Below are positions 5,922 to 26,043 of a stretch of 33,867 nt of DNA, one piece after another. A program made the position numbers and the translations under genes. Within the stretch, counting starts at the first letter, position 1. The number at the start of each line of letters is the position of its first letter. The stretch is from Candidatus Omnitrophota bacterium (lineage in GTDB: Bacteria > Omnitrophota > Gorgyraeia > Duberdicusellales > 4484-171), in the NCBI GenBank assembly GCA_024542985.1, contig JAMXCX010000014.1, positions 1-33,867 of the forward strand, written 5' to 3'. The notes under the pieces are model-generated. The model was not told where the DNA came from. It did not search any database and saw only the letters and a program-made list of their open reading frames with translations.

Positions 5922-7355
5922 ATGTCTGTAGCTAAAAAAGTAGCAACAAATACTCTTTTTCTAATTTTAGGGAAAATTGTTACTATTTTTGTGCAGATAA
6001 TAATTATTAGTTTATTGGCCCGGTATCTTGGTGTTTCAGGTTACGGAAAATACGCTTTTGTTTTTGCCTATCTATCTTTTTTCCAAGTTTTATGTAACGC
6101 CGGTCTCGATAGTATATTAGTTAGAGAAATATCTCGCGAAAAATCTTTAGCTGCCAAGTTAATCGGACTGGGAGTTATTATAAGATTTTTTATTTCAGTA
6201 GCAGCATTTTTATTGGCAGTTTTAATAATTACTTTATTAGGGTATCCGCAGGACATTACTAAAGCTATTTATATTTTATCGTTGATTTTACTATTTAGTT
6301 CCTTGCGGACTCCAGAATTAATCTTTCAAGTTTATTTAAAATCACAATATCCAGCTTTGATCAATTTGCTGACTAAGTTTTTAACTCTCGGATTGATTTC
6401 TCTTGCTATCCATCAGAAGGGAAACTTAATTTTTATTATTTGGATGATTCTAGCTGCAAACTTAGCTAGCAATAGCGCCGTAATAATTTACTCAAGAAGA
6501 TTCGTTGTGCCTAAATTTAGTTTTAACTTAAATCTTTTTAAACGGGTTATAAAAGAAAGTTGGCCGGTTGCTCTTACTGCCATCGCTATCACTGTTTATT
6601 TTAAAATCGATACTATAATGCTGTCTTTTATGAAGGGTGATGAAGCCGTGGGCTATTACAGTGCTCCTTACGGCATAATGGCAACTTTAATTTTTATTCC
6701 CGCAGCGTATGTTACTTCAATTTTTCCTGTAATATCGGAGTATTTTAAATCATCGGTTGATTCTCTTACTAAAGTATTCAAAAGGTCATTTAAATATCTT
6801 TTTACCCTTGCTTTACCTATTGTGGTTGGAGGAGTTATTTTATCCGGCGATATAATTATTTTTGTTTTTGGAGATAAATTTTACTCTTCAATTAATGTTT
6901 TTCGTATTTTAATTTTTGCGATGGGCATTATTTTTATAAGTAATTTGGTAACAAATGTTATTATTGCTACCAACAGGCAAAAGATAAATCTTTGGCTGGT
7001 TTTAGCCAATGTAGCTTTAAATATATCACTGAATTTAATTCTTATACCGCGCTGGAGTTATATCGGGGCCAGCATCGCTACTGTTTTCACTGAAGGCCTA
7101 GGTTGCAGTTTAGCTCTTTTTTTAAATTTAAAGTATTTTAAATTACGATTTTTTTCTAAAAGATATCTTAATATCTTAAAACCATTTTTAGCCGCAGCAG
7201 TAATGGCTGTGGTAATTTTTTGTCTTCATGCAGCCCACTTTTTAGTTATTATTCCTATTGCTGGTTTAGTCTATATAGGAGCATTATTTATATTTCGTTG
7301 GTTTGATAAGGTAGATTTGTCTTTATTTAAGGAAATCTTAAAAACTGCCCGATGA
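5922..7355 (+). CDS. Polysaccharide flippase (Wzx/MATE-like, MOP superfamily)
   Basis: 477 aa with ~12-14 predicted TM segments. N-terminus 'VATNTLFLILGKIVTIFVQIIIISLLARYLGVSGYGKYAFVFAYLSFF' is characteristic of Wzx. Confidence 0.93.
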   Translation: MSVAKKVATNTLFLILGKIVTIFVQIIIISLLARYLGVSGYGKYAFVFAYLSFFQVLCNAGLDSILVREISREKSLAAKLIGLGVIIRFFISVAAFLLAVLIITLLGYPQDITKAIYILSLILLFSSLRTPELIFQVYLKSQYPALINLLTKFLTLGLISLAIHQKGNLIFIIWMILAANLASNSAVIIYSRRFVVPKFSFNLNLFKRVIKESWPVALTAIAITVYFKIDTIMLSFMKGDEAVGYYSAPYGIMATLIFIPAAYVTSIFPVISEYFKSSVDSLTKVFKRSFKYLFTLALPIVVGGVILSGDIIIFVFGDKFYSSINVFRILIFAMGIIFISNLVTNVIIATNRQKINLWLVLANVALNISLNLILIPRWSYIGASIATVFTEGLGCSLALFLNLKYFKLRFFSKRYLNILKPFLAAAVMAVVIFCLHAAHFLVIIPIAGLVYIGALFIFRWFDKVDLSLFKEILKTAR

Positions 7356-8719
7356 AAATATTATTATTAAATCCTCCTATTCTGGGAATTGATAAACCTC
7401 CCGTTCCTCCCTTAGGTATTTCTTATATAGCCGCAGTTTTAAAGAAGAATAATTTCATAGTAGACCTTATAGACCTAGACTTAGAAAGGGAAAAATTTAA
7501 AAATATTTATGAGATTATGGCTTCTTATAGACCCGATTTGGTCGGCATTAGTGGATTGACCATCCAGATGGAAAACGTATATTACATAGCTAAGGTAATA
7601 AAAAAAATATCGAAAAAAATAATTGTAGTTACTGGTGGACCTCATCCATCATCTTTGTCAGAGCAGACTTTAAAAGAGGCAGGCGGAAATATTGATATAG
7701 TGGTCGCCGGCGAAGGCGAGTTTACACTTTTGGATATTGCTATGGATAAGCCTTGGGAACAGATAGAAGGAATTTTATATATTAAGGACGGTAAAATATA
7801 TGGGAATAAAAAGCGAGAACCTATTTCTGATTTGGATTCGTTGCCATTTCCGGCAAGAGATATGCTGGCAATTAAAAAATATCGAGGTTGGGGACCTTTG
7901 AGGGAAAGCCCTACTACTCACTTAATAGCTTCCCGGGGTTGCCCTTTTGATTGTATTTTTTGTTCAGAAACAGCAGTTTTTGGCAGGAATCACAGAAGAA
8001 GAGATCCCAAAAGAGTTGTGGATGAGATAGAACACCTTATTAAAGAATACGGTATGCGAGAGGTTTCGTTTTATGATGATTTATTTACTCTTAACAAAAA
8101 ATGGGTAATTTCGGTATGCCACGAAATTATTAAAAGAAATATAAAGCTTGATTGGAAAGCATTAAGCAGGGTTGATACCGTAGACTATGAAGTTTTAAGT
8201 TATATGAAAAAAGCTGGCTGTCGGATTATATTTTACGGCATTGAGTCGGGATCTCAAAAAATTTTAGATAACATTCGCAAAAGTCAAACTGTCGAACAAA
8301 ATCTAACTGCAGCCCGGTTAACTAAAAAAGTAGGCATAGAGATGTTCGCATTTTTTATGATTGGTAATGTTGGTGAAACCCAGAGTACTATTTATCAAAC
8401 GATAAAGCTGGCCAGAAGGATTAAGCCAAGATATTACCAATTTACCATTGCTAGGCCCGATCCCGGATCTTATTTATACAATGAATACATTCAAGAAATT
8501 AACGAGAAAAATCTTTCTTGGGGGGAGTACTATGCTTTTCCTGATAATCCGGCTAAGATGATTGTAGTAGGATCAGAGGTCAGCAACCAAGAACTGATTA
8601 TTTTTAGAAAATTAGCCTATATGGCCATGCGCCCAATGTCTTTGATTAAAAATCTCATCAAGGCAGCAGTAACTTTTAATTTAAAGCAGGTAAAACGGAT
8701 ACTGAAAGTTTGGTTTTAA
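7352..8719 (+). CDS. B12-binding-domain-type radical SAM protein
   Basis: N-terminal B12-binding-like fold (NPPILGIDKPPVPPLGISYIAAVL...TGGPHPSS...AGEGE) and CxxxCxxC motif 'SRGCPFDCIFCSE'. ATGA overlap with the upstream stop. Confidence 0.93.
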   Translation: MKILLLNPPILGIDKPPVPPLGISYIAAVLKKNNFIVDLIDLDLEREKFKNIYEIMASYRPDLVGISGLTIQMENVYYIAKVIKKISKKIIVVTGGPHPSSLSEQTLKEAGGNIDIVVAGEGEFTLLDIAMDKPWEQIEGILYIKDGKIYGNKKREPISDLDSLPFPARDMLAIKKYRGWGPLRESPTTHLIASRGCPFDCIFCSETAVFGRNHRRRDPKRVVDEIEHLIKEYGMREVSFYDDLFTLNKKWVISVCHEIIKRNIKLDWKALSRVDTVDYEVLSYMKKAGCRIIFYGIESGSQKILDNIRKSQTVEQNLTAARLTKKVGIEMFAFFMIGNVGETQSTIYQTIKLARRIKPRYYQFTIARPDPGSYLYNEYIQEINEKNLSWGEYYAFPDNPAKMIVVGSEVSNQELIIFRKLAYMAMRPMSLIKNLIKAAVTFNLKQVKRILKVWF

Positions 8720-8735
8720 TTAAGGGAGATTACCT

Positions 8736-9515
8736 ATGAGAAGTGCTTCCAAAGTAGCAATTATTACCGGCATAACAAAAGGAATTGGTAAGGTAATAGC
8801 TTTAAGCTTTGCTAAAGAAGGAATGAATTTAGTTGGTATTGCCCGTAATAAGGACGATGTTGACAGAGTTTTAGATGAGATAAGGCAGGAGTTTAAGATA
8901 GATACTCTGGGCCTAGGCGTAGATGTTTCCAAAAGCCAAGAGGTTGATAACATTTTACCGAAAACCTTAGAGAGATTTAATAGCATAGATATTTTAGTTA
9001 ATAATGCTGCAGTAGGTAAATTGGATTACATCATCGACTCAAAACTAGAGGATTGGCAAAATATTATTGATGTAAATCTAAAAGGTGTGTATTTATGCTC
9101 CAAGACTGTTTTAGGACAGATGATTAAGCAAAAAGGCGGCAGGATAATTAATATCGCTTCCATTTGCGGCCTAAAAGGTGTCCCAAGGTATGGTATATAT
9201 TGTGTTTCAAAATTCGGTGTTGTGGGTTTTACTGAAGTAATGGCTCAGGAAGCAAAGGAGCACAATGTTATAGTTTCGGCTGTTTGCCCTGGTATTGTTG
9301 ATACTGGTTTTGCCGATAATAGTAATTACGCCCTTACAAGCCCTGGTAATATGCTAAAACCTGAGGCAGTTGCTAAGCTGGTGCTGCATTTAACAAAGTC
9401 TTCTCAGGCTTCCCAAATTTGTGAGATTTATCTTAAACCTAAAAATAGAATAGAGAGACTGTTAAAAATTAAACAGCGAAAAACAGTAATTAAGAGGATC
9501 AAATATTTATGCTAA
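8736..9515 (+). CDS. Short-chain dehydrogenase/reductase (SDR)
   Basis: 'ITGITKGIGKVIA' Rossmann motif, 'NNAA', 'YCVSK' (YxxxK). SD GGGAG upstream. Confidence 0.93.
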   Translation: MRSASKVAIITGITKGIGKVIALSFAKEGMNLVGIARNKDDVDRVLDEIRQEFKIDTLGLGVDVSKSQEVDNILPKTLERFNSIDILVNNAAVGKLDYIIDSKLEDWQNIIDVNLKGVYLCSKTVLGQMIKQKGGRIINIASICGLKGVPRYGIYCVSKFGVVGFTEVMAQEAKEHNVIVSAVCPGIVDTGFADNSNYALTSPGNMLKPEAVAKLVLHLTKSSQASQICEIYLKPKNRIERLLKIKQRKTVIKRIKYLC

Positions 9516-10942
9516 TTCTAGTTAATCCGCCAAATCCCCCTGGTAAAGTATCAAATAAGGATATGATGGGCGGGTTAGGGCAGTTATATGAAGAAGGTGC
9601 CCCAAAGATTCCCCCAATAGATATCCCTTATACTGCCGCCTGCCTTAAGCAAAAAAATATACCCGTCGAGGTTATTGATTGTTTGGGGTTAGATTATGAT
9701 TCTGATGCTCTAATCCTGAGTCTTAAAAAAAAACTAGTAGATAATGAAAAGATAAGTATAGCATTACGTACCTCTTTACCGACTTATTGTCATGATATGG
9801 AGGTGGCTCGCAACATCAAACAGCAAACTAATGCTCAATTAGTATTTTTTGGTCCCCAGGTATCTCTGTATCCTAAAGAGACAATCGAGAAAAATTTTAT
9901 CGATGTTGTTATTATTGGTGAACCTGAGTTTATTTTTGTAGATATATTTTTAAAGGGCCTTAAAGAAACAAGGGGAATATGGTTTAAAGATGAAAGTGGC
10001 CAGATTATTCGTAATGCCGCTGGTAGAAAAATTGAGGATTTGAATCAATTACCCATTCCTCTTTGGGAATTAATGCCCTATAAACAATATATTCTTCCTG
10101 AGCCCCAATTTCCCAATATCAAATCCTTTTTACCCATACTGACTTCCCGGGGTTGTCCCTTTAATTGCGGTTATTGCCCTTACCCTTTAATCCAAGGCTG
10201 CAAGTGGCGGACACGTTCAGTTGAAAAGGTAATCGAAGAACTAAAATATATCGTGAATAATTTAGGCATAACTAATGTCCTTTTTCGCGATCCGGAATTC
10301 ACCCTTGATAAAAAAAGAACAGCAAAGCTTTGCCAGGAAATAATAAGAGAAAAGTTAGTTTTTTTCTGGCGCTGTGAGACCAGAATTGATACTCTTGATG
10401 AAGAACTTATCGAGAAGATGGCTGAAGCCGGATGCCGGGGCCTAAACTTAGGGGTTGAATCAATTTCTCCTAAAACCTTGAAAAGAATGGGAAGAAGCAG
10501 TTTTAATCAACAGCACTCAGAAACTATTATTGATTGTTGTAGAAAGAAGGGTATAAATACTTTTTGTTTTTTTATTATAGGTTTACCAGGGGAGGACAAA
10601 AAAGATATATTAAAGACTATAAAATTTGCTCAAAAGCTTGACCCTTCTCAGGTTCAGTTTACTTTTGCAATTCCTTATCCGCAAACTCCTTTAAGGAAAT
10701 GGGCCCAAGATAATAATTTTATAGAAGATGAAGATTTGAATCATTATACTGGTTATATTCCTGTTATGAGAAACGAGCATTTAACTGTAAAACAATTAAA
10801 GCGAATACACAACTTTGCTAATAAATGGGTTGGATTAAGAAAAAGTCAAAAAAAACAGAGGATAAGAAAGTTTGGTTTTATTCAGGCTGTAAAGGAATTA
10901 TTAAAAGAGGTACTCTTTTGGTTTAAGCAGTGGTTTGTGTAA
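9509..10942 (+). CDS. B12-binding-domain-type radical SAM protein
   Basis: 'TSRGCPFNCGYCPYP' CxxxCxxC. N-terminal 'NPPNPPGK...IPYTAACLKQKN' and 'GEPEF'. Overlaps the SDR stop by 7 bp. Confidence 0.92.
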   Translation: MLILVNPPNPPGKVSNKDMMGGLGQLYEEGAPKIPPIDIPYTAACLKQKNIPVEVIDCLGLDYDSDALILSLKKKLVDNEKISIALRTSLPTYCHDMEVARNIKQQTNAQLVFFGPQVSLYPKETIEKNFIDVVIIGEPEFIFVDIFLKGLKETRGIWFKDESGQIIRNAAGRKIEDLNQLPIPLWELMPYKQYILPEPQFPNIKSFLPILTSRGCPFNCGYCPYPLIQGCKWRTRSVEKVIEELKYIVNNLGITNVLFRDPEFTLDKKRTAKLCQEIIREKLVFFWRCETRIDTLDEELIEKMAEAGCRGLNLGVESISPKTLKRMGRSSFNQQHSETIIDCCRKKGINTFCFFIIGLPGEDKKDILKTIKFAQKLDPSQVQFTFAIPYPQTPLRKWAQDNNFIEDEDLNHYTGYIPVMRNEHLTVKQLKRIHNFANKWVGLRKSQKKQRIRKFGFIQAVKELLKEVLFWFKQWFV

Positions 10943-10954
10943 AAGAGCAATAAT

Positions 10955-12127
10955 ATGAGAATACTGCAAGTATGTGATTATTATCAGTATTTAGGAGGAA
11001 CCGAGACCTATATTATTAATCTTTCCCGAGACTTAGAAGCCCAGGGTCATAGTATTTCTGTTATGTACGCAATAAAGACAGATAAAACTTTTTTTTCTGA
11101 TAATCGAGGAGAGCATTACTTTGCGGCTATAATGGTAGATGAAAAATTAAGCCTTAATCAGGAAAAAGAGATTCGGGAAATAATTGACAAGGAAAACCCC
11201 GATATTATCTATATACATAATGTGTTTAATTCTTACTTGATTGATAAATTGTCTAAAATGAGGCCGGTGGTTCGATTTATACACGACCACAACATTTTCT
11301 GCCCCAAGGGAGATAAATTCCTGGACTTAAAAGGAAAAGTATGTCCTTGTGCTTGTGGTATCTCTTGTTTTTTTAATGCTTATATTAATAGATGTCTTCC
11401 CAGAAATCCTTTTAAAACTATAAGATTGATAAGACAAAAAAGGAGACAGGCCGGTATCAATAAAAAAATAAACATTATAGTTGCCAGTAATTATATGAAA
11501 GGTTGCCTTATCCAAAATGGATTTTGGTCTGCAAAAATAAAAGTCATTTCTTACTACACAACGCCTATAAAATATGATCAAGTATTTTTTAAAGATTTTC
11601 TGCTGTTTGTGGGAAGGGTTCATAAGACAAAAGGCTTGCAAATTTTGTTGCCAGCGCTGGCTAAATCTTCTTCCAATATTAAGCTGGTTGTTATAGGCGA
11701 AGGAAGGTATATGGATGAAGCTAAGAGTTTAGCTTCAAAATTGAAGCTAAAGAATAGGGTTAGTTTTTTGGGCCAGCTTTCCCAAGAGAAAATAGTAGAG
11801 TATTTTGTTGATTGTTTCGCTTTAGTCATATCTTCTCGGTGGCCAGAGCCGTTTGGAATAGTTGGCATTGAGGCTATGTCTTATAAAAAGCCGGTTATTG
11901 CCTCAGACGTTGGCGGTATTTGCGATTGGCTGGATGATAATACCAATGGTTTTTTAGTGGATAACAGCGATGCAGAAAAGTTAGCTGAAAAAATCAAATT
12001 TCTTTATTATAATAAAGATAAAGCAAAAGATATGGGCCAGGAAGGTTACAAAATTTTTCAAGATAAATTCTCAAAAGATACACATATAAATAATCTCATA
12101 GGATTTTTTAATGAATTAAAACAATGA
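10955..12127 (+). CDS. Glycosyltransferase family 4 (GT4)
   Basis: GT-B fold: 'LFVGRVHKTKGLQILLPAL', 'VISSRWPEPFGIVGIEAMSYKKPVIASDVGGI'. Confidence 0.93.
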   Translation: MRILQVCDYYQYLGGTETYIINLSRDLEAQGHSISVMYAIKTDKTFFSDNRGEHYFAAIMVDEKLSLNQEKEIREIIDKENPDIIYIHNVFNSYLIDKLSKMRPVVRFIHDHNIFCPKGDKFLDLKGKVCPCACGISCFFNAYINRCLPRNPFKTIRLIRQKRRQAGINKKINIIVASNYMKGCLIQNGFWSAKIKVISYYTTPIKYDQVFFKDFLLFVGRVHKTKGLQILLPALAKSSSNIKLVVIGEGRYMDEAKSLASKLKLKNRVSFLGQLSQEKIVEYFVDCFALVISSRWPEPFGIVGIEAMSYKKPVIASDVGGICDWLDDNTNGFLVDNSDAEKLAEKIKFLYYNKDKAKDMGQEGYKIFQDKFSKDTHINNLIGFFNELKQ

Positions 12128-17486: not shown

Positions 17487-18567
17487 TGCCCGGGAAATTC
17501 AAGATAAGATGACCGGAATAAGCAGGTATCTTACGGGTTTCTTGAAACATATATCCTCGAGCCCCCATGAATATTTTCTTTATTATTCGCAGGTTCCGCA
17601 AAACAAGTTAAACTATCCCAAAGCACAGGTTAGAATTCTTAAGGGTAAGCAATTTGTCTGGGACCATATTTTATTACCCAAGGCTTTGGCTAAAGATCAT
17701 ATAGATTTATTTTTTTCGCCTTATTATAAGAGACCTTGGTCTTTAAAGTGTAAATCTATTGTTACAGTACACGATATAAATCCTTTGTTTATTAGGAGCT
17801 ATTCTTTTTTTTATAAGCATTATTTTAAAACTATACTGCGACGCTCTTTATCTTGCGCAGATTATATTATGGTTGTTTCTCGTTACGTTAAAGATGAGCT
17901 AATAGAATTATTTAATGCTGATCCTGAGAAAATAATAGTTAACTATAATGCCCTTGATAAAAGTTTTATTACTGCTAATAGCGATGCATTTGAGAGTCGT
18001 GTTCTGGAGAAATATAAGATAAAAACAGATTATATTTTATATGTAGGTAACCTTATGCCTCATAAGAATGTTTCTTTGTTAATTAAGGCTTATTCAGGCC
18101 TACCGAAGGGCTTAAAAGATAAATATAAGTTAGTTATTGCCGGAGGAAGAAACTGGACCTATCAACAGCAGCTAGAGTTGTCGAGAGAGTTGGGATTGGA
18201 AAACAGTATTATTTTTGCCGGCTTTATTGATGATGAGGCTTTGGCGTCGATATATCGCAGGGCAAGTTTGTTTGTTTTTCCTTCTCTTAGGGAAGGTTTT
18301 GGTTTTCCGCCGCTTGAGTCTATGGGCTGTGGAATACCAGTAGTAGCCTCTAGGGCTACATCTTTACCGGAAATTATAGGAGATGCTGGCATCCTGGTTA
18401 ATCCAAGCGATGTTGGAGGATTTACTAAAGCGATGGAAAAAGTCTTAAATGATGAAAGCCTGCAAAATGAATTAGCCGAGCGAGGCCTAAAGAGAGCAAA
18501 GGAATTTTCCACAGAAAAGATGGCCGCGGTATTGTTTAGTGTTTTTGAGAAACTTTCATACGGTTAG
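17470..18567 (+). CDS. Glycosyltransferase family 4 (mannosyltransferase-like)
   Basis: 'MKIGIDAREIQDKMTGISRYL', 'VFPSLREGFGFPPLESMGCGIPVVASRATSLPEIIGDAG'. GTG start overlapping the methyltransferase end. Confidence 0.94.
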   Translation: MKIGIDAREIQDKMTGISRYLTGFLKHISSSPHEYFLYYSQVPQNKLNYPKAQVRILKGKQFVWDHILLPKALAKDHIDLFFSPYYKRPWSLKCKSIVTVHDINPLFIRSYSFFYKHYFKTILRRSLSCADYIMVVSRYVKDELIELFNADPEKIIVNYNALDKSFITANSDAFESRVLEKYKIKTDYILYVGNLMPHKNVSLLIKAYSGLPKGLKDKYKLVIAGGRNWTYQQQLELSRELGLENSIIFAGFIDDEALASIYRRASLFVFPSLREGFGFPPLESMGCGIPVVASRATSLPEIIGDAGILVNPSDVGGFTKAMEKVLNDESLQNELAERGLKRAKEFSTEKMAAVLFSVFEKLSYG

Positions 18568-18577
18568 GACTTTTAAG

Positions 18578-19624
18578 ATGGCCAAACCAATAAAACAACC
18601 TCTTATTGACTATAAAGAAATTACAGCTTTTTTAAAATACAAATTTCCACAGGCTAGCAATATAATATTTGAAAATATTTTGATAAAGGGCGATAGCCTG
18701 GTAGTCAAAGCAGACCTAAGATACAACAAAGGTAAGGTTAGAAGATTATGGGTAAAAATTGACAAAAACTTCTTTGATGACGAAGAAAAAGCTAGAAAAA
18801 TAGCAGAAGACTCTTATCATCTATTAAGCAAGTTATATGATGATTTTTCAGGAGAGGATAATTTTGCTATAGTAAAACCTTTGTGCTTTTGGCCGCAATG
18901 GGCAGCGGTGATTACCGAAGATGCTCCTGGTGTGCCTTTAAGTAGTATTGTTTATAAATATGTTTTTTCTTTAAATAAATTTGGCGGTCATAATAAAAAA
19001 AGAGTTACCGAAATTTTATCAAACTGCGGAAAGTGGGTCGCTAAGTTTCAAGAAACTACTGGATTAGACAAAGAGCTAAAAGGTTTTGAGCTGGATTTTT
19101 TGAAAGATGCCGAAATCAAAAGAGATTTATCTTTTCTAAAGTATGTAGGCGTTAGCAAAAAGACCACCGAAGTTTTGAGAGACTATTTATTTAAACATCT
19201 TCCTTTTGTTAACGGATTGACGCAAAAGGGGGTTGGCTGCCATGTTGATTTTTCTCCGCGTAATATAATTGTCGGCAAAAATAACAAAATCACACTTTTG
19301 GATTTTGAAAAGTTTAGCTACCGCTGGCCATATGATAATTTGGCTATATTCATGGTCTATCTAGACAGTTTTAGGAAATATCTTTTAGTCGATAAAAATA
19401 AGTTAGAGAATTTAAAGGAGTTTTTTTTACAAGGTTATAAGAGCAAAACGCAGCATAATATTGATGAAAAGATCTTACATTTTTTTTACACACGCTATAT
19501 GCTGATAATGGTAGCCAATGAGCTCACATTTGTTAAAAAGCGAAAACCTTTTATACGCTGGTTAATTTTAAACAGGATGAGGTCCATATTAGAGTTTTGG
19601 GTTAATAAAAATATACTCCGGTAA
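18578..19624 (+). CDS. APH-family (aminoglycoside phosphotransferase-like, protein-kinase-fold) protein
   Basis: Catalytic loop 'GCHVDFSPRNIIVGKNNKITLLDFEKFSYRWPYDNLA' fits HxDxxxxN...LDFE. The track start at 18539 overlaps the previous gene; ATG 18578 with TAGGAC upstream is preferred. Confidence 0.8.
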   Translation: MAKPIKQPLIDYKEITAFLKYKFPQASNIIFENILIKGDSLVVKADLRYNKGKVRRLWVKIDKNFFDDEEKARKIAEDSYHLLSKLYDDFSGEDNFAIVKPLCFWPQWAAVITEDAPGVPLSSIVYKYVFSLNKFGGHNKKRVTEILSNCGKWVAKFQETTGLDKELKGFELDFLKDAEIKRDLSFLKYVGVSKKTTEVLRDYLFKHLPFVNGLTQKGVGCHVDFSPRNIIVGKNNKITLLDFEKFSYRWPYDNLAIFMVYLDSFRKYLLVDKNKLENLKEFFLQGYKSKTQHNIDEKILHFFYTRYMLIMVANELTFVKKRKPFIRWLILNRMRSILEFWVNKNILR

Positions 19625-25227: not shown

Positions 25228-26043
25228 ATGTATAAAGAATATTGGGATTTGACTCATAAACCCTTCGAAAATACTCCCGACCCAAGGTTCATTTACTATT
25301 CCCCTCAACACGAAGAAGTATTTTCCCGTCTTCTTTACGTAATAAAGGAAGGTAAAGGTGCGGCAATGTTGACCGGAGTTTTTGGCTGCGGCAAGACCTT
25401 AATAAGCAGAATTTTGCTTAAAGAGCTGGATAGCAGTATTTATAAAACCGTACTCATAACCAATCCTTATTTAACTTATGAAGAGTTCTTAATGCATATC
25501 TGTTACAATTTGGGCTGTAAAGATTTGCCTGATACGAAATCGGAAGTTCTTGTTAATGTTGTGCTGCAAAGGTTGAACGAGGCCTTAATAAACAACATGC
25601 GCGATGGCAAAAGAACAGTTGTTATTATTGATGAGGCTCACGTGATTAAAGACAGAAAAGTTTGGGAAGAAATAAGGCTTATTCTTAACTTCCAATTGGA
25701 AGATAAATTTCTGATTACTCTTTTACTCCTGGGCCAGCCGGAGTTAGAAGAAGCAATGGATATCAATAAACAATTTTCGCAAAGAATTGCCATTAAGGGC
25801 CATCTAGGCAGTTTCGACGACGATGATGCCAAGAAATATATCCGGCACAGGTTATCTGTCGCCGGAAGAGACAAAGACCTATTTACCGAGGATGCCTATA
25901 AAGAAATATTCAAGAAATCCGGAGGCATACCCCGCCGGATAAATAATATTTGTGATTTAGCTTTGTTGTCAGGATTTGGCTTAAAAACTTCTCTAATCGA
26001 TAAAGATATAATCAAAGACGTATCTAACGATTTAGGAAATTAG
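25228..26043 (+). CDS. ExeA/GspA-like AAA ATPase (similar to the ATPase of exosortase/EPS loci)
   Basis: 'MYKEYWDLTHKPFENTPDPRFIYYSPQHEEVFSRLLYVIKEGKGAAMLTGVFGCGKTLISR', Walker B 'TVVIIDEAHVI', C-terminal 'SGGIPRRINNICDLALL'. SD GGAAGGAG upstream. Confidence 0.92.
   Translation: MYKEYWDLTHKPFENTPDPRFIYYSPQHEEVFSRLLYVIKEGKGAAMLTGVFGCGKTLISRILLKELDSSIYKTVLITNPYLTYEEFLMHICYNLGCKDLPDTKSEVLVNVVLQRLNEALINNMRDGKRTVVIIDEAHVIKDRKVWEEIRLILNFQLEDKFLITLLLLGQPELEEAMDINKQFSQRIAIKGHLGSFDDDDAKKYIRHRLSVAGRDKDLFTEDAYKEIFKKSGGIPRRINNICDLALLSGFGLKTSLIDKDIIKDVSNDLGN

Follow-up and report, generated by a model that had tools for sequence, protein, structure and literature searches.

An AprD4-type radical SAM protein and its proposed SDR partner in an Omnitrophota Wzx/Wzy locus: a probable module for deoxygenation of a surface-polysaccharide sugar

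A 33,867-nucleotide stretch of an Omnitrophota genome (contig JAMXCX010000014.1, hereafter the window) carries a polysaccharide locus in which two radical SAM genes (rSAM1 and rSAM2) flank a gene for a short-chain reductase (SDR). The SDR and rSAM2 are most likely a deoxygenation pair of the AprD4/AprD3 type predicted to act on a sugar of the glycan, a reading based on the position of rSAM2 within the AprD4 clade and on a linkage to SDR genes like that between AprD4 and AprD3. The fuller model, in which the cassette modifies a surface-polysaccharide sugar before export, with rSAM2 and SDR carrying out the deoxygenation and rSAM1 a separate step, is considered probable, though well short of assured. 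It rests on gene anatomy, homology, clade membership, fold, conserved residues, SDR linkage and synteny. The initial annotation had proposed that a matched rSAM/SDR set in the Wzx/Wzy locus might build an uncommon sugar, and synteny and family membership support that proposal.

In the reaction that we infer, rSAM2 would convert SAM to a 5′-deoxyadenosyl radical, which would take a hydrogen atom from the carbinol carbon of a vicinal diol of the sugar; the neighbouring hydroxyl would leave as water to give a deoxy-keto sugar, and SDR with NAD(P)H would reduce the ketone, for the net removal of one hydroxyl. A cobalamin-dependent radical step by rSAM1, possibly a C-methylation, would act on the same repeat unit, and GT1 and Wzx would handle the modified unit afterwards. 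The identity of the sugar and the type of acceptor (nucleotide sugar or lipid-linked glycan) are putative, as is the reaction.

The three open reading frames are real, and their profile matches place them in the radical SAM, classical SDR and radical SAM families, as initially annotated (Table 1). Their tight coupling, directly after wzx and before the glycosyltransferase (GT) series, was likewise borne out: wzx overlaps rSAM1 by 4 nt and SDR overlaps rSAM2 by 7 nt, while gaps of 16 nt and 12 nt separate rSAM1 from SDR and rSAM2 from GT1. Upstream of the cassette are genes for a Wza-like export protein, a Wzz/tyrosine-kinase protein and a Wzy-like protein; downstream are seven GTs, a GDP-mannose 4,6-dehydratase (gmd) and a WecA-like initiating transferase, and the surrounding locus also contains two methyltransferases and an APH-type kinase. 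The latter, an APH/choline-kinase-like protein within the GT series (18539-19624), could phosphorylate a sugar of this glycan. An ATPase (25228-26043) and an export protein (9-2462) of XrtA/PEP-CTERM type, both below curated cutoffs, lie at opposite ends of the locus and hint at an exosortase-type exopolysaccharide system. An Rfam search of the window returned no match.

Table 1. Genes of the conserved block, with window coordinates and principal matches
Gene	Product	Coordinates	Strand	Match
wzx	wzx-type flippase; opens the conserved block	5922..7355	+	PF01943 6e-34
rSAM1	cobalamin-binding-type radical SAM	7352..8719 (455 aa)	+	PF02310 2e-25, PF04055 4e-21
SDR	classical short-chain reductase	8736..9515 (259 aa)	+	PF00106 1e-57
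rSAM2	AprD4-type radical SAM	9509..10942 (477 aa)	+	phmmer to 6fd2 6e-45
GT1	GT4-type glycosyltransferase	10955..12127	+	PF00534 3e-41

The closest solved relative of rSAM2 is AprD4 (PDB 6fd2), a radical SAM enzyme that serves apramycin biosynthesis as a 1,2-diol dehydratase; the two align over residues 3-446, the next phmmer match being at 2e-17. The AlphaFold2 model of rSAM2 (pLDDT 94.3) also matches 6fd2 best (Foldseek 1e-35, TM 0.79/0.83), followed by TsrM (3e-23). Identity to AprD4 is about 26-28%, and the two proteins fall in separate subclades. The AprD4 profile NF033070 scores 195.5 of the 500 bits of its cutoff (1.5e-57), so rSAM2 is a wider relative and not an AprD4 equivalog; the HpnJ profile, at 199 of 578 bits, also misses its cutoff. 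Because the two profiles score alike and below cutoff, the tree and the fold have to decide between them.

One scan of GTDB genomes yielded 60 relatives of rSAM2, among which those from Streptoalloteichus tenebrarius, S. hindustanus, Saccharopolyspora hirsuta and a Streptomyces are AprD4 or close to it (genes in the high-GC actinobacterial loci were read by frame). In the trees, which are quick searches, a branch with SH-aLRT 99 separates all 43 proteins bearing the motif C-x3-C-x2/3-C-[PA]-Y from the rest; when annotated HpnJ and BchE are added, the clade is recovered with SH-aLRT 96, and HpnJ, BchE and rSAM1 lie outside it. Members of the AprD4/rSAM2 clade come from many bacterial phyla and from some archaea. 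A search of a plasmid collection with rSAM2 found distant relatives only, which served mainly as HpnJ/BchE controls. Twenty-five positions that are near-invariant among 34 relatives are kept in rSAM2 and are also present in AprD4, including the cluster cysteines, the tyrosine after the third cysteine, FRD..F and WxCET; the relatives were gathered with a scan pattern containing W.CET, so conservation of that motif is no independent evidence. By common descent, by fold and core residues and by the presence of a partner SDR gene, rSAM2 groups with the AprD4-type radical SAM diol dehydratases and is a putative 1,2-diol dehydratase of a sugar.

For HpnJ, a hopanoid-associated radical SAM protein, a sugar headgroup has been suggested as the substrate. 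The main rival to deoxygenation is that rSAM2, with its AprD4 fold, performs another radical reaction on a sugar: a dehydrogenation, an epimerisation or a ring rearrangement like that proposed for HpnJ, after which SDR would finish the product. Its low identity to AprD4 and the equally high score of the HpnJ profile would allow this, and related sugar-acting radical SAM enzymes such as DesII, with TDP-quinovose, can carry out dehydrogenation in place of elimination (PMC11434129). The reading is nevertheless rather unlikely, given that the near-invariant positions of the clade also occur in AprD4, that HpnJ groups with its relatives in a clade of its own, and that the pairing with an SDR matches AprD4/AprD3.

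The partner of AprD4 is the NADPH-dependent reductase AprD3 (PMC5461906). In the window, SDR displays the TGxxxGIG and YxxxK motifs in alignment. Of the 43 clade members, 28 have an SDR gene no more than 400 nt away, a count that leaves out L086, where an SDR gene directly follows; the corresponding figures are two of 18 control rSAM1-like genes (Fisher 1.6e-4) and 12 of 51 other radical SAM genes of the same loci (Fisher 6e-5), values that are descriptive because the clade members are related. The partners are classical SDRs in the window and in loci L046, L047, L051, L073, L075, L078, L086 and L099, and extended SDRs elsewhere; none was found near the clade member in L056, L067 or L077. The SDR of the window is 19% identical to the one beside the AprD4 gene (L099), no closer than SDRs are generally. 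In L073 (8438-10207, Tumebacillus avium), the SDR that follows the AprD4-clade gene is fused to an APH-type kinase domain, possibly as part of an aminoglycoside-like pathway in this Bacillota strain.

Both radical SAM proteins had initially been annotated as B12-binding. The description holds for rSAM1, which combines a B12-binding domain with a radical SAM core and so belongs to the cobalamin-dependent radical SAM proteins, but not for rSAM2, in which no PF02310 match at E 0.001 and no GG.H loop was found. The radical SAM motif CxxxCxxC of rSAM1 reads CPFDCIFC, and the protein keeps the SxL-x25-GG.H signature, which rSAM2 has lost; the GG.H loop is typical of cobalamin-binding domains and occurs in 17 of 18 rSAM1-like proteins as against none of 34 members of the clade of rSAM2. 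Ten of those 34 have a weak PF02310 match, and the clade may therefore descend from cobalamin-binding ancestors. These weak matches, with the PF02310 domain of rSAM1, are what could be said for two cobalamin-dependent C-methyltransferases jointly making a branched or C-methyl sugar, a reading that is highly improbable: rSAM2 lacks the domain match and the loop, and its closest solved relative, AprD4, does not methylate. For rSAM2 this reading was rejected on the grounds that it has no B12 domain and belongs to the AprD4 clade. The initial annotation favoured two cobalamin enzymes catalysing C-methylation or rearrangement; that chemistry fits rSAM1 only, and rSAM2 and SDR point to deoxygenation.

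The AlphaFold2 model of rSAM1 (pLDDT 92.6) has TsrM, AprD4, MgmA and OxsB as its nearest folds, none of them close. Naming a reaction for rSAM1 from profiles or fold was abandoned, all matches being below cutoff or about equally distant; for the same reason, C-methylation as the separate cobalamin-dependent step is a guess. The genome contains a cobalamin riboswitch and no match to CobA/CobO/BtuR, a combination that would fit the use of cobalamin not adenosylated by that enzyme. Among 97 related genomes of the phylum, 51 have at least one B12-type radical SAM protein at E 1e-60, with up to nine per genome, several of them in tandem; the paralogous set is thus very large.

The block of five genes is more than a chance arrangement, since two other genomes also have wzx, rSAM1, SDR, rSAM2 and GT1 in this order, the encoded proteins being 40-65% identical to those of the window. 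In L046, from an Aminicenantes MAG, the identities are 59, 65, 55, 60 and 49%, respectively; in L047, from the family of the window, they are 40, 56, 48, 51 and 40%. The genome of L047 (G214) provides the best match for wzx, SDR, rSAM2 and GT1 among 285 genomes of the phylum and for rSAM1 among 97 relatives. The neighbouring wzy (42%) and wzz (36%) of L046 are less conserved than its cassette. Identity of the cassette is higher in L046 (JAUWVG010000018.1, 1-12057) than in the genome from the window's own family; as L046 is on a 13.8-kb MAG contig, horizontal transfer and mis-binning are both possible.

Within the subclade of rSAM2, the second radical SAM protein is of the rSAM1 type in the window, L046 and L047, of another type in L049 and L051, and of a 620-aa type in L048, L050 and L057. 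None was found in L052, L054 and L055, where a minimal pair of rSAM2 homologue and SDR indicates that the pair is separable from rSAM1. L055 is a locus of Pseudanabaena biceps strain O153. The rSAM2 homologues of L048 (1582-3330), L050 (7001-8725) and L057 (7001-8677) are longer, at 558-582 aa, with about 100 extra residues at the C-terminus; a Wzt_C ABC protein is encoded on one side of them, and an extended SDR and the 620-aa protein on the other.

In the window, L046, L047 and L056, the exporter gene next to the module encodes Wzx; in L048, L049, L050, L051, L053 and L057 it encodes a Wzt that has a Wzt_C domain. Counting genes up to 3.7 kb away, a Wzx or Wzt gene accompanies 12 of the 13 subclade members. 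The thirteenth, L054, has glycosyltransferase-like and nucleotide-sugar genes around it. No Wzx/Wzt-type exporter gene was found in the 1.5-kb flanks of the 18 rSAM1-like control loci. Such surroundings weigh against the idea that the cassette serves a different pathway (hopanoid, tetrapyrrole, lipid or small-molecule natural product) and is merely located in an exopolysaccharide locus. The idea draws on sub-cutoff matches of both radical SAM proteins to the HpnJ and BchE profiles and on the origin of AprD4 itself in an antibiotic pathway; with Wzx and GT1 co-varying with the cassette and no squalene-hopene cyclase (PF13249) match in the genome, which is 88% complete, it is quite improbable. 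Homologues in hopanoid or chlorophyll contexts, named at the outset as the finding that would count against a glycan role, were looked for, and the objection did not hold: the rSAM2 subclade is one of glycan loci, no squalene-hopene cyclase was found in the genome, and HpnJ and BchE are outside the clade. Assignment to the HpnJ/hopanoid group also fails on the HpnJ score (199-220 of 578 bits), and a hopanoid or chlorophyll role was rejected from gene context, tree and the missing hopene cyclase.

Since AprD4 acts on an assembled glycoside and the module sits beside an exporter gene, a lipid-linked glycan is favoured over a nucleotide sugar as the probable substrate, and the exporter linkage suggests that the enzymes may modify this glycan once it is assembled and about to be exported. 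The growing end of O antigens can bear chemical caps, which are recognised by Wzt_C domains (PMC9445017). A bolder extension, which is doubtful, would make AprD4-type deoxygenation a widespread edit coupled to export: removal of a terminal hydroxyl would stop elongation and mark the chain, and the deoxy terminus would be recognised by Wzx or by the carbohydrate-binding domain of Wzt. Methyl and phosphate caps are known from O antigens, and a deoxy terminus would, if so, be their radical counterpart.

A search of the available literature found no report of radical SAM deoxygenation or dehydratases in polysaccharide loci. The conserved set beside polysaccharide genes suggests that many microbes have deoxy sugars in their surface glycans, formed by a route previously known only from the biosynthesis of an antibiotic. 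If the model is right, there is a new PLP-independent route to deoxy sugars of glycans, AprD4 represents a single branch in a far larger family of which a good part edits surface glycans, and the substrate range of that family is directly testable.

Among known systems, TsrM and the OxsB/CysS/TokK class share the PF02310 plus PF04055 architecture and a similar fold with rSAM1, but at 14-22% identity they are too distant for a reaction to be assigned. HpnJ is of the same broad radical SAM class as rSAM2, and its profile scores close to NF033070, but it differs in its separate clade, its motif CTFCLWPQ and its hpn gene context. A 2017 account (PMC5461906) names AprD4 as the sole known radical SAM dehydratase. 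Differences from AprD4 are the cysteine motif (Cx3Cx2C in rSAM2, Cx3Cx3C in AprD4), the context (a polysaccharide locus instead of an antibiotic cluster), the additional cobalamin-type radical SAM protein of the cassette and an SDR only distantly similar to that of the AprD4 system. The likeness extends to full-length homology, fold, clade, cysteine cluster, CPY, FRD and WxCET; both proteins are without the GG.H cobalamin loop, and both have a reductase gene nearby.
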